NCBI RefSeq assembly: GCF_013170825.1
Contig: NZ_CP033365.1
Span: 5,282,001 to 5,346,000, forward strand
Direction of reading: 5' to 3'
Length of the DNA stretch: 64,000 bases
Source: Mesorhizobium sp. NZP2298
GTDB taxonomy: Bacteria > Pseudomonadota > Alphaproteobacteria > Rhizobiales > Rhizobiaceae
The notes below the pieces were generated by a model. It was not told where the DNA came from. It worked only from the letters and a program-made list of their open reading frames with translations, and made no database searches. Both the position numbers and the translations under genes were made by a program. Below, piece after piece: positions 37,660 to 42,616 of the stretch (positions are counted from its first letter, which is position 1; each line of letters begins with the position of its first letter).

Positions 37660-37736
37660 CGGAGTGTAGCGCAGCCTGGTAGCGCACCTCGTTCGGGACG
37701 AGGGGGTCGCAGGTTCAAATCCTGCCACTCCGACCA
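37660..37736 (+). tRNA. tRNA-Pro (anticodon CGG)
   Basis: A 77-base cloverleaf. The acceptor stem is CGGAGTG with CACTCCG; the D-arm contains AGCGCAGCCTGGTAGCGC; the anticodon stem CCTCG/CGAGG encloses the loop TTCGGGA with anticodon CGG (proline); the T-arm has GGTTCAAATCC; and the CCA end is genomically encoded after the discriminator A. No duplicate of its 3' end was noticed downstream, so it does not look like an occupied attachment site. Confidence 0.96.
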
Positions 37737-37982: not shown

Positions 37983-38057
37983 TTATCGGAGGCCAAAGAA
38001 GCTCAATATCGCCAACACGATGACTATCGCTCCAACGAGCCAGATGATGTTGTTCAT
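37983..38057 (-). CDS. 24-residue single-helix membrane protein
   Basis: A very small gene: Met-Asn-Asn-Ile-Ile-Trp, then a hydrophobic helix (LVGAIVIVLAILSFFGLR), 24 residues in all. The ATG has an excellent ribosome-binding site, AGGAGAGAGATC immediately upstream, which argues strongly that it is translated. Similar tiny proteins of this pattern occur in rhizobia as I recall, annotated only as hypothetical. About 110 bp further upstream is a GGAAC-N18-TT sequence, the EcfG-type stress promoter, and a hairpin sits just upstream of the ribosome-binding site. Probably an inner-membrane stress microprotein; partner unknown. A longer in-frame start at 38204 lacks such support. Confidence 0.72.
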   Translation of the reverse strand: MNNIIWLVGAIVIVLAILSFFGLR

Positions 38058-38080
38058 GATCTCTCTCCTGTCGCCTGGGA

Positions 38081-38110
38081 GGCCCGCGCCTCTGGCGGAG
38101 GACGCGGGCC
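38081..38110 (-). other. Leader hairpin upstream of the 24-residue gene
   Basis: GGCCCGCG (38081-38088) pairs with CGCGGGCC (38103-38110), extended inside by CCTC/GAGG with a one-base bulge. In minus-strand orientation this strong stem ends about 12 bases before the AGGAGAGA ribosome-binding site and lies within the presumed 100-base leader. It could modulate translation or mRNA stability; there is no T-run, so simple termination is unlikely. Confidence 0.5.
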
Positions 38111-38167
38111 GATCAGCCATTGCCGGCCGATCTTCAGCGGACACCAACGCGCTTGCCGCGGGAGTAG

Positions 38168-38192
38168 AACTATTAGATAGACCTAATGTTCC
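38168..38192 (-). promoter_or_regulatory. Candidate EcfG promoter of the 24-residue gene
   Basis: On the minus strand GGAAC is followed by 16 bases and AGTT, that is GGAAC-N18-TT, the consensus for the general stress sigma factor of rhizobia. Transcription would start about 100 bases upstream of the small membrane-protein start codon. The same spacing and AGTT form recur before the His-rich gene at 38366-38390. Confidence 0.5.
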
Positions 38193-38365
38193 ACCGCATG
38201 GCAAGCTGGATGTCGCGAATTTTTGAGCTCAGATCGTCGTGCCGCTTGAATGAGCGCAACCGATGCATCGGGCACTTCGAAAAGCGCCCCTTCTCTGCCC
38301 TGGGCAATGCGATCGCCCGACCTTCGACTTGCCCTTAGGCATCCCTACTGCCTTGGGAAAACCCC

Positions 38366-38390
38366 GGAACCAAAGCGGCCAGCCGCAGTT
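38366..38390 (+). promoter_or_regulatory. Candidate EcfG promoter of the His-rich gene
   Basis: GGAAC at 38366-38370, 16 bases, then AGTT at 38387-38390, fitting GGAAC-N18-TT. It lies 41 bp upstream of the start codon of the His-rich secreted protein, a normal promoter distance, with GGAG just before the ATG. Confidence 0.55.
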
Positions 38391-38431
38391 GTATCCACCG
38401 AAGGGCTATTCAAGTAAGTGGAGAAAATATA

Positions 38432-38719
38432 ATGAAAACAATGATCATGTGCGCGTTGGCGCTTTCCGTGGGATTGCCGGTCGTAGCGTCGGCAGCCGAG
38501 GCCGATGTGGTTATCAGGACCCACCATCGACACCACCACAAGGTCAGGATCATCAACGAGGATGGACAGCGCCTGCATCACCGTCACCACGGCACGGTCG
38601 CGTTCTACGACCATGGCCGCCGGCATCATCACCATCGTCGAGACGCCCTCGTGGTCACGGGTTCCGTCTCCACACACCATCACCGCCATCCCGTGGTGAT
38701 CGAGAACGGCGGCTACTGA
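38432..38719 (+). CDS. Histidine-rich secreted protein
   Basis: A 95-residue protein with a clean signal peptide (MKTMIMCALALSVGLPVVASA, cleavage about residue 21-22). The mature 74 residues contain about 20 histidines, mainly in HH and HxH clusters (THHRHHHKVRI, RLHHRHHGTV, GRRHHHHRRD, STHHHRHP). Such clusters bind Zn, Ni, Cu or Co, suggesting a periplasmic metal buffer or, given the context, a stress-protective protein; this is inference. GGAGAAAATA precedes the ATG and an EcfG-like promoter lies 41 bp upstream. The opposite strand also shows an open frame but without a ribosome-binding site. No homologous family is recognised. Confidence 0.75.
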   Translation: MKTMIMCALALSVGLPVVASAAEADVVIRTHHRHHHKVRIINEDGQRLHHRHHGTVAFYDHGRRHHHHRRDALVVTGSVSTHHHRHPVVIENGGY

Positions 38720-38847
38720 TAACACGGCCGCTGGCCCTGCTTATTACCAGGAGTCGGGCCAATTCGCGCGATGGTGCTGGTCCATACCCCTCGCCCGTTA
38801 GTCACCGCCGAGCTTGACTTACCCATCGACAGGCTGGGCCACCAGCT

Positions 38848-39042
38848 TCAGGGATGTGATCGGCGGCGTCTTTCGAAGATGTCGATCTTGCGGCTGTATG
38901 TCATCCGAATTTGGTTGTCACAACCTTCACAGGTCAGCGACTTGACGCTCTTTATCAGGCGGCCTTTACGGATCATCATTCGGTTGCATCGAGGACATTG
39001 GATCATCATGTCATCATCATACCGGTCCGGTGAAAGTGCCAT
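38848..39042 (-). CDS. Small zinc-ribbon protein
   Basis: A 64-residue protein with two CxxC knuckles, CPRC (residues 16-19) and CEGC (38-41), separated by 18 residues, as in treble-clef or ribbon zinc-binding proteins. It is basic at the C-terminus (ERRRR), suggesting nucleic-acid contact. The ATG at 39042 has GGGAGG seven bases upstream, an excellent Shine-Dalgarno. A much longer in-frame reading (to 39444) exists but its extra residues look random. No stress-type promoter was found. Function unknown; it lies within the cluster of small stress-type genes. Confidence 0.7.
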   Translation of the reverse strand: MALSPDRYDDDMMIQCPRCNRMMIRKGRLIKSVKSLTCEGCDNQIRMTYSRKIDIFERRRRSHP

Positions 39043-39436
39043 ATTCGCCTCCCAATGATGCTGGCAAGCAACGTACGTGCCGCATGGATATCTCGTTGTG
39101 ATGTGTGGAGCGGCCGGCGTTAATCGAGCGTGATTTATTGGCTCACGATCCGCGATTCCCGTCTGGCATCGGAGCCATGTGTTTCTGCGTCTGCGATAGA
39201 AAAAGAGCCTAAGCTGCGAAAGCCGGGAGTATCGCGGAAAAGCTAAGTCCGGCTTTGCCGTGGGGCCGTACGACAGTGGGCTCGAAAATCCGTGGTCGCG
39301 GAAGCCTTCTTCCGCTCCCCGACTTGAGACTGAGGGTTCGCTCGCCGCATGGAAGCGGCGGGCGAACCCTATCGGCGCAGGAAGGGACATAGCTGCGCCA
39401 ATCTGCAGGACACTCGTATTCGATCTTTTCGGATGG
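39043..39436. other. Non-coding stretch with strong RNA-type hairpins
   Basis: No credible protein gene. Bases 39333-39348 and 39355-39370 form a 16-bp stem with one G-T wobble (GGGTTCGCTCGCCGC with GCGGCGGGCGAACCC), loop of six bases. Next to it, 39297-39318 contains a second short hairpin (GCGGAA/TTCCGC). The large stem lies 67 bases past the stop of the 30-residue gene on the minus strand and could terminate it, but no T-run follows. A structured small RNA in 39236-39370 is possible but unproven. The 11-mer TAAGTCCGGCT occurs at 39244 and again at 39625. Confidence 0.35.
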
Positions 39437-39529
39437 TCAGCCAAGAGTTATTCCAATCGCCATGAAGGTGATGGCCACCGCGAAGATCAGCGCGAGCAAC
39501 CAGCGCGCTTGGCCAACACTCTTTTCCAT
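39437..39529 (-). CDS. 30-residue single-helix membrane protein
   Basis: A tiny gene encoding a short charged N-terminus (MEKSVGQARW) followed by one hydrophobic helix (LLALIFAVAITFMAIGITLG), 30 residues in total. Two features argue for a real gene: AGGAG seven bases before the ATG, and an EcfG promoter match (GGAAC-N17-CGTT, both elements perfect) whose -10 is 27 bases upstream, leaving a leader of about 15-20 bases. Too short for ordinary gene finding. Probably an inner-membrane protein made under general stress; function and partner unknown. Confidence 0.68.
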   Translation of the reverse strand: MEKSVGQARWLLALIFAVAITFMAIGITLG

Positions 39530-39555
39530 CAGTTTCTCCTGAACATGCAGCGGAC

Positions 39556-39581
39556 AACGGCTGCGAACGGGGGGCTGTTCC
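39556..39581 (-). promoter_or_regulatory. EcfG-type promoter of the 30-residue gene
   Basis: Reading the minus strand: GGAAC (39581-39577), 17 bases, CGTT (39559-39556). This matches the alphaproteobacterial general stress sigma consensus GGAAC-N16/17-CGTT exactly. It is the best of the five candidates in this window and is correctly placed for the 30-residue membrane protein. Confidence 0.65.
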
Positions 39582-39660
39582 GGGCAGCATCACAGGTAGG
39601 ACCATTGCATTTTACAGCCAGACTTAAGTCCGGCTCCCCACCAGACCGAAGCCCAGCTCG

Positions 39661-39685
39661 GGAACGATTACGCTTCGACTCTGTT
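39661..39685 (+). promoter_or_regulatory. Candidate EcfG promoter of the 39724-40393 gene pair
   Basis: GGAAC at 39661, 16 bases, TGTT ending at 39685, fitting GGAAC-N18-TT. Transcription would begin near 39692, after the first in-frame ATG (39688) of the downstream gene, which supports the later start at 39724 or 39736. The pair of genes downstream is tightly spaced and probably shares this promoter. Confidence 0.5.
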
Positions 39686-39723
39686 CGGTGACTGGGCGCG
39701 CGAGGGCGATCAAGCGAATTTGG

Positions 39724-39951
39724 ATGAAAGTCACCATGTCGAACAGCGAGGCCGCAAGATCCGATGCATTGGGGACGCGCGTAGCCGCCCTCGAGGCCAG
39801 GATGCAGCAAGCCCGGATTACCATGAGCGAAATGAAGACATTCCAAAAGGTTGCTGCCATGATGGAAGACGGGCAGGGCAGCATCGATGGCGACGATTTG
39901 ATCGCCGCGTCCTTCGTGACCGGCACGTTGCTCGACAAGGAAACGCCCTGA
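39724..39951 (+). CDS. Small helical hypothetical protein
   Basis: A 75-residue soluble protein, mostly helical with a probable short coiled coil (DALGTRVAALEARMQQARITMSEMKTFQKVAAMME) and an acidic C-terminus. No family is recognised. The start is uncertain: ATG codons at 39688, 39724 and 39736 are in frame; the upstream promoter candidate ends near 39692, so 39724 or 39736 is likely. It lies 4 bp before the next gene, with which it probably forms a two-gene stress-inducible unit. Confidence 0.55.
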   Translation: MKVTMSNSEAARSDALGTRVAALEARMQQARITMSEMKTFQKVAAMMEDGQGSIDGDDLIAASFVTGTLLDKETP

Positions 39952-39955
39952 GACC

Positions 39956-40393
39956 ATGCGGACCATTAGCAGGCTTTTTGATTCCCATGCCGAAGCGGGC
40001 CGGGTTGCTGGAGAACTGGTGGCGGCTGGTGTTCCTCACATTCAGATTGCCATTATTGGCCCCTACCAGGATGAAGTCGGAGTTCTAAAGTCTCCGGGCG
40101 TCATTCTCGGTCTGGTCGGTGCGGCATTGGCGTGCCTTGGTGCCGTGGCCGTCTACGGTGTCAATTCCCTTCACGCCGGATTACCGGCAACAGCTGTGAT
40201 TTGCGCGGTCTGTGGCGGCGCTTGCGGGTTGCTCGGCTCATTCATCACGACTGCTGCCAAACCCGACGATCTGAGCGTCGCCGAGGGGATCGTCCTGGTG
40301 ACGGCCCATGTCGATGAAAACAAGAGCGACATCGCCCAGACAGTGCTCCGTGGTGAGGCCCCGCTGGCCGGACTTGTCGCCGAAGCAGCATGA
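39956..40393 (+). CDS. Glycine-zipper membrane protein, stress-protein-like
   Basis: A 145-residue protein with an N-terminal alpha/beta domain (MRTISRLFDSHAEAGRVAGELVAAGV, IQIAIIGP), a pair of hydrophobic glycine/alanine-rich helices (about 49-70 and 77-98: VILGLVGAALACLGAVAVYG, ATAVICAVCGGACGLLGSFI), and a C-terminal alpha/beta segment (GIVLVTAHVDENKSDIAQTVL). This layout matches proteins annotated as general-stress 17M-like or low-temperature-induced proteins in rhizobia as I recall. It follows the 39724 gene by 4 bp and probably shares its EcfG-type promoter. Inner-membrane location is inferred; biochemical role unknown. Confidence 0.75.
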   Translation: MRTISRLFDSHAEAGRVAGELVAAGVPHIQIAIIGPYQDEVGVLKSPGVILGLVGAALACLGAVAVYGVNSLHAGLPATAVICAVCGGACGLLGSFITTAAKPDDLSVAEGIVLVTAHVDENKSDIAQTVLRGEAPLAGLVAEAA

Positions 40394-40572
40394 GAATCCC
40401 TGGAGATGACAGGCCGACAAGCCGTGCGAACGAGCGAGCGCCGGCAGACGACATCTCGTCACGACCGGCACGGATTGCGATCGGGCTCGACAGCAGGCGC
40501 AAACTTTGTCGAAATGGGCATCGGCTCTAGGCAATTCGATGAAAGCCGGTAAGCTGGCGACCGGATGCGGAC

Positions 40573-40917
40573 ATGAATTTTATCTCAACGACAGCCTGGA
40601 CACCGGTTCTTGTGATTGCCGTGCTTCTCGTGGCCGGCTGCTCCTCGATCAGCGGAACGGTAGATCCGGCGAAGTACGACAAGATGACCTGTGTCGAGCT
40701 CAACAGCGCGCTGGGCGAAACCGCCAGCGAAATCTCGCAAACCGCGATTACGCGCGGCAAGGTCGCCAACACCAATGTTCCGCGCTGGCTGCTTGGCGGC
40801 TCGCGGGTGAAAACCGCCGTCGCCAATCGGGAAACAGCCAGGATAGACCGGCTGAAACAGCAGCAGGATGCCATTGCCGCTGCGCGCGCACGCAGGTGCC
40901 CGAGGTCTGCGGGCTGA
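40573..40917 (+). CDS. Small lipoprotein
   Basis: A 114-residue lipoprotein: signal peptide with lipobox LLVAGC (acylated Cys23) followed by SSISGTVDPAKYDKMTCVELNSALGE. The rest is helical, with a Lys/Arg/Gln-rich amphipathic C-terminal part (RLKQQQDAIAAARARRC). It is probably anchored to the outer or inner membrane facing the periplasm. No family name is recognised, but the pattern (short lipoprotein with YDxMTCxEL) recurs in rhizobia as I recall. No EcfG-type promoter was found in the 180 bases upstream. Confidence 0.75.
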   Translation: MNFISTTAWTPVLVIAVLLVAGCSSISGTVDPAKYDKMTCVELNSALGETASEISQTAITRGKVANTNVPRWLLGGSRVKTAVANRETARIDRLKQQQDAIAAARARRCPRSAG

Positions 40918-40963: not shown

Positions 40964-42583
<1,620 letters not shown>

Positions 42584-42616
42584 GTCAGCGATCCCCATCT
42601 TTATCGATCCCCCATA

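Follow-up and report, generated by a model that had tools for sequence, protein, structure and literature searches.

A conserved RNA that folds into two hairpins was found directly downstream of orf30, a gene for a 30-amino-acid (aa) membrane peptide, in a 64,000-nucleotide stretch (the window) of the 7.34 Mb single-contig genome of Mesorhizobium sp. NZP2298 (G000:C1:5282001-5346000 in our coordinates). We put at about 0.7 the probability that peptide and RNA are the two products of one dual-function transcript under control of the general-stress sigma factor EcfG, the RNA half being a small RNA (sRNA) with a C-rich loop. The transcript belongs to a block of small genes between tRNA-Pro and a transporter ATPase gene. 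The general stress response of rhizobia is known mainly through its sigma switch, and many of the small genes at its output still lack an explanation. The features of the unit are as follows.

39437-39529, minus strand: orf30, 30-aa membrane peptide of the M[DE]xSVxQARWLL family
39329-39405, minus strand: two-hairpin RNA, presumed 3' part of the orf30 transcript
39556-39581, minus strand: promoter motif of orf30 and the RNA, GGAAC-N17-CGTT

The DNA conservation extends past the stop codon of orf30. The sequence-only reading of this stretch had recognised the 30-aa open reading frame (ORF) and its motif, both of which stand, but it overlooked the RNA behind them. Hairpin 1 (about 39402-39371) has a 10-bp stem and the loop CUAUGUCCCUUC in this copy, the form across copies being CUA(C/U)GUCCCUUC; in hairpin 2 (about 39370-39333) the stem is long and GC-rich. 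The run GTCCCTTCCTGCG was invariant in 24 aligned copies, and the most conserved part of the RNA is the unpaired loop. Two covariance models were built, R1 and then a broader one, R2. A model search over 90 sources gave 115 matches, of which 92 sense copies were kept and 23 antisense matches, owing to the palindrome, were dropped; about 15 weaker matches of the R1 scan of 99 genomes lie outside the 92-copy set. Among 88 copies, 93.7% of the cells in paired columns held standard pairs, and 21 of the 26 pairs had changed on both sides, compared with 11.1 pairs in shuffles (0 of 500 as high) and 6-9 in slid structures. The loop core GTCCCTTC was exact in 85 of the 92 genus copies, and a strict motif (GGAAC-N17/18-GTT) lay within 200 nucleotides (nt) upstream in 88 of them, the reverse strand giving 8 and shuffles 0.6. 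The RNA had no match at curated score in Rfam 15, either in the window or in ten RNA-bearing loci, and within the block the highest-ranking weak match, to Atu_L6 (E 0.36), lay on the opposite strand.

For orf30, the median pairwise ratio of nonsynonymous to synonymous substitution rates (dN/dS) was 0.23 (65 ORFs, 1664 non-independent pairs), so the peptide is selected as a protein. Both a selected ORF (dN/dS 0.23) and a selected RNA (covariation) are therefore found, as a dual-function transcript calls for, and the common transcript we infer from the single promoter. The two halves are also found apart. An intact 30-codon ORF stands upstream of the RNA in 62 of the 92 copies and an ORF of similar length in one; in the other 29 none was found within 22-33 codons, some of these being remnants or longer forms, such as the 35-codon version of L127. 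No ORF intervenes in the RNA copies with the motif about 47 nt (n=6) or 83-88 nt (n=4) upstream, the ORF is shortened or broken in five with the motif 106-111 nt upstream, and three have a motif at 30-39 nt only, which may be chance. At the main locus of three genomes (G075, G038 and G022; loci L012, L013 and L016) the ORF is intact and the RNA decayed: the unfiltered broad model gave no convincing RNA match at these loci (best 12.4 bits, E 0.24). G038 and G022 each hold exactly one RNA match, an RNA-only copy elsewhere (L065 and L091), and G075 holds one RNA-only and one complete copy (L084 and L085). In G038 and G022 the unit has probably been split by duplication and complementary loss, presumably in that order. 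With such natural peptide-only and RNA-only versions the role of each half can be addressed directly. On balance we lean towards a new family of general-stress dual-function RNAs, in which a single EcfG-driven transcript carries a 30-aa QARWLL membrane peptide and a GUCCCUUC-loop sRNA; in some species (G038, G022) the two would now be separate, the peptide-only gene remaining at the old locus and the RNA-only gene lying elsewhere.

The R1 model detected the RNA in 49 of the 99 sampled genomes of the genus, at 1-5 copies each, and its main copy is syntenic. In a sample across the order, R1 matched 3 of 199 genomes, each a member of the genus. With R2, 17 of 297 family genomes and 9 of 109 genera were positive; 13 of the 17 lie outside the genus, sparsely spread over eight other genera. 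Of the loci outside the genus 13 were read, one per genome. They have GTCCCTTC exact in 12 copies (the exception is L267) and keep a QARWLL-like ORF in five; in L262, L265 and L266 the loop sits on an unrelated stem. Plasmids also carry the unit: p1536_1 of Nitratireductor thuwali (L271) has motif, ORF and RNA (43.2 bits), and on a Mesorhizobium huakuii plasmid the copy (L270) retains motif and ORF, its RNA being decayed and lacking the loop; neither record lists a gene over the ORF, the gene table being incomplete. At the main locus of G010 (L025, 1261-1285) only hairpin 1 and the loop are kept (22.4 bits, model positions 7-32), hairpin 2 having been lost.

The promoter of the unit is one of four in the block, whose other features are listed here.

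37660-37736: tRNA-Pro, the sole Rfam 15 match in the window
37983-38057, minus strand: orf24, 24-aa single-helix membrane protein MNNIIWLVGAIVIVLAILSFFGLR
38168-38192, minus strand: orf24 promoter motif GGAACATTAGGTCTATCTAATAGTT
38366-38390, plus strand: his promoter motif
38432-38719, plus strand: his, 95-aa His-rich protein with a signal-peptide-like N-terminus
38848-39042, minus strand: zinc-ribbon gene
39661-39685, plus strand: p75-gz promoter motif
39724-39951, plus strand: p75, 75-aa protein of unknown function, first gene of p75-gz
39956-40393, plus strand: gz, 145-aa glycine-rich membrane protein of the mll7603 family, second gene behind p75
40573-40917, plus strand: lipoprotein gene
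40964-42598: transporter ATPase gene, the border of the block opposite tRNA-Pro

The tRNA-Pro and the small ORFs of the sequence-only reading are present at the positions listed here, and its four motifs, at 38192, 38366, 39581 and 39661, were all found in place. The one at 39581-39556 on the minus strand is the sole GGAAC-N16/17-CGTT in the 64 kb window. That reading had also proposed a scan of the whole genome to see whether the motif density here exceeds background. The interval 37983-40917 contains four GGAAC-N17/18-GTT, compared with a mean of 0.13 in dinucleotide shuffles (four or more in 0 of 2000), whereas genome-wide GGAAC-N16/17-CGTT gave 136 matches against 220 for the reversed pattern. 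We therefore rejected motif density as proof and tested conservation between genomes instead.

A DNA search of the 99 genus genomes gave some match to the block in 88, and we examined 33 loci with all or part of it (L001-L030 and L039-L041, L001 being the window's own), requiring the strict motif within 160 nt before the start codon. At fixed distances it was present before orf24 in 21/21 loci, before his in 24/24, before orf30 in 23/23 and before p75 in 22/29, with at most 0.27 per gene in shuffles. The second-site copies that were retrieved agreed, with the motif before orf30 in 8/8 (L031-L038) and before his in 6/6 (L043-L048). Between loci the spacers share 62-75% identity; in the motif-bearing rows GGAAC and GTT cannot vary, by construction. 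No strict motif precedes gz (0/28 loci), in line with its second place after p75, nor the lipoprotein gene (0/32) or the zinc-ribbon gene (0/1, the window's own locus). From these counts the co-controlled unit consists of orf24, his, orf30 and p75-gz; the joint control suggested earlier for the whole block holds for these and not for the zinc-ribbon and lipoprotein genes. It is the conservation between genomes that makes the promoter case convincing, the genome-wide count saying little. EcfG-type control of the four units is thus strongly supported and very probable from sequence comparison, and the block may be described as an EcfG general-stress regulon island of Mesorhizobium, with presumed sigma dependence.

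The machinery for such control is present in the genome. PhyR, an extracytoplasmic function (ECF) sigma factor and HWE kinases are encoded together at about G000:C1:1.527-1.534 Mb, the PhyR and sigma factor genes adjoining each other (L049, G000:C1:1522500-1540500). From the PhyR neighbourhood, we take this sigma factor to be EcfG. The L049 locus holds ten GGAAC-N17/18-GTT motifs in 18 kb, and one of them precedes a small membrane protein read from its translation as DUF1328-like. Elsewhere, a large frame read from translation as a KatE-type catalase (L050, 8682-11528, minus strand; G000:C1 about 3.019-3.022 Mb) has three EcfG-type motifs upstream on its strand.

Expression data are available for a relative. 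In M. loti MAFF303099, msl7604 is listed with the 50 genes that respond most strongly to heat shock (M-value 4.31; PMC3989490). Induction is also reported for the RpoE2-like sigma factor mll3697. This msl7604 is probably the p75 ortholog, since gz has its ortholog in the neighbouring tag, mll7603, and p75 has a 74-aa ortholog (P0098). Its heat induction supports the EcfG-type control of the block.

We propose the following working of the system. Stress, acting via the PhyR-NepR-EcfG switch, would turn on the four promoters of orf24, his, orf30 and p75-gz. Released EcfG would transcribe the orf30 unit, and the ribosome would make the membrane peptide from its 5' half. The 3' half, whole or processed, would fold into the hairpin with the C-rich loop followed by the second strong hairpin, and it probably acts in trans as an sRNA whose GUCCCUUC loop may pair with G-rich leader stretches of target mRNAs. 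Sigma-factor dependence, expression of the RNA, action in trans and targets are what we infer for it.

Several results weigh against this proposal. No RNA match was obtained in 50 of the 99 genomes sampled from the genus, about half, and the alignment behind the covariation count had been fitted to the model, a bias in favour of the structure. Hairpin 2 is followed by a TTTT run in 8 of the 92 genus copies only, so within the genus this hairpin is mostly not a canonical intrinsic terminator; outside it a T-run is found in 6 of the 13 copies (L145, L146, L261, L262, L265 and L266). Outside the genus, too, the strict motif lies upstream in 5/13 and the loose one in 8/13, five having neither. Matches of the loop-complement seed before ATG are equally frequent whether or not a genome has the RNA (30.0 with it, 30.6 without, p 0.76). 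In the window's own genome GAAGGGAC, the loop complement, occurs within 14 nt before ATG in 29 places, among them starts read from translations as pckA, chvI, hutU-like and transporter genes. The chvI site, readable in 14 of 31 loci, is exact in 7/7 with the RNA and in 6/7 without it. With equal counts and a chvI site kept without the RNA, we claim no targets by loop complement. As a separate observation, the divergent genes read as pckA and chvI (L149 and L150, G000:C1 about 439575-439905) both have GAAGGGAC, the exact loop complement, before their start.

The strongest alternative, which we consider unlikely, is that the 3' structure merely ends or stabilises the orf30 mRNA, with the peptide as sole product and no action in trans. 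The usual position of the RNA behind the ORF (62/92) fits this, as do the terminator-like T-runs in 6/13 copies outside the genus. However, conservation is highest in an unpaired loop, for which a terminator has no need; the RNA-only copies keep promoter, loop and structure; and at three loci outside the genus the loop is carried by an unrelated stem. It seems improbable to us that orf30 encodes a small hydrophobic toxin, as one partner in a type I toxin-antitoxin-like pair, with its translation controlled by the structure: the peptide is short and hydrophobic, has several paralogues per genome and comes from a structured transcript, but the RNA lies on the ORF's own strand (no search was made for antisense transcription), and ORF without RNA and RNA without ORF both persist. 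A dispersed palindromic repeat lying beside stress promoters by chance would be palindromic, present in up to five copies per genome and matched by the model in antisense, as seen here, yet we give it very little credence, because the strict motif lies on the same strand within 200 nt in 88/92 copies (reverse strand 8, shuffled sequence 0.6), no palindrome is formed by hairpin 1 and its loop, the main copy occupies a syntenic position and the 99-genome scan for further copies gave at most five per genome.

Among the other genes of the block, orf24 reaches furthest, with relatives in 35 of 297 order genomes and 18 genera. Of 41 copies read beyond the block's own, 19 have the strict motif within 200 nt and 28 a looser one (shuffles 0.3 strict and 1.0 loose; reverse strand 2 and 5), and 13 lack even the loose motif. 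Judged by these motifs, orf24 is probably an old output of the same general-stress switch in many genera of the order. Its promoter lies 135 nt from the ATG, giving a leader of about 100-105 nt; the leader (38058-38163) is conserved in sequence and has three predicted hairpins. A second regulatory RNA is not claimed there, as 4 of 25 predicted pairs changed on both sides and the fold was not unusual (z -1.29). The spacer of the orf24 promoter (38168-38192) contains an inverted repeat, ATTAG-N6-CTAAT, largely conserved in the 21 loci, and a similar form precedes the orf24 paralogue of the same genome (L228); the repeat within the promoter could be an operator.

The small proteins of the block had no family match at curated cut-off. 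We found 47 relatives of his, those named being Mesorhizobium hypothetical proteins; 129 of p75, those named almost all from Mesorhizobium; and 76 of gz, the named ones from Mesorhizobium, e.g. mll7603 of M. japonicum. The zinc-ribbon gene was found in 1 of the 33 loci, its own. Near second-site copies of orf30 and the RNA in G012 and G021 (L033 and L034) there is a distant relative (34-35%) of the zinc-ribbon protein.

EcfG-controlled sRNAs and protein-sRNA transcripts are already known kinds; the orf30 RNA was previously unnamed and is without an Rfam match. Among open-licence papers we found none on the peptide motif, the loop sequence or mll7603, and none describing this RNA by its title or the start of its abstract. 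For M. huakuii, novel sRNA candidates have been reported, in sections without sequences (PMC5596092), and one of them may be the orf30 RNA. In Sinorhizobium meliloti, 23 sRNAs were predicted with general-stress sigma promoter motifs, e.g. SmelB126 (available sections of PMC3616915 and PMC7143759), and the orf30 RNA resembles them in this motif. Of these RpoE2-linked sRNAs only SmelB126 and SmelA018 were compared. The SmelB126 region (L268) differs in having no R2 match and no loop sequence on the sRNA strand, with one GTCCCTTC on the opposite strand outside the sRNA; SmelA018 (L269) likewise had no R2 match.

Two systems are closer in kind. In Rhodobacter sphaeroides, CcaF1-CcsR1-4 (CIN1) combines the gene of CcaF1, a 71-aa DUF1127 RNA-binding protein, with sRNAs behind an RpoHI/RpoHII promoter (available sections of PMC10253847). 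The likeness is a small protein gene and stress sRNA on one transcript from an alternative-sigma promoter; here, in contrast, the peptide is hydrophobic, of 30 aa and without a DUF1127 match, which sets it apart from the CIN1/CcsR kind, the motif is of EcfG type and the RNA is single. GsrN of Caulobacter is a sigma-T (EcfG)-dependent sRNA that base-pairs through its C-rich loop with a G-tract of the katG leader, a precedent for the mechanism proposed here; its matches are confined to Caulobacteraceae, and the homologues predicted elsewhere sit next to the ecfG locus (available sections of PMC5869019). Compared by description only, the orf30 RNA shares with GsrN a general-stress sigma promoter and a conserved C-rich loop (loop exact in 85/92, strict motif in 88/92), and it differs in lying away from the ecfG locus (no R2 match in L049) and usually behind a conserved peptide ORF.

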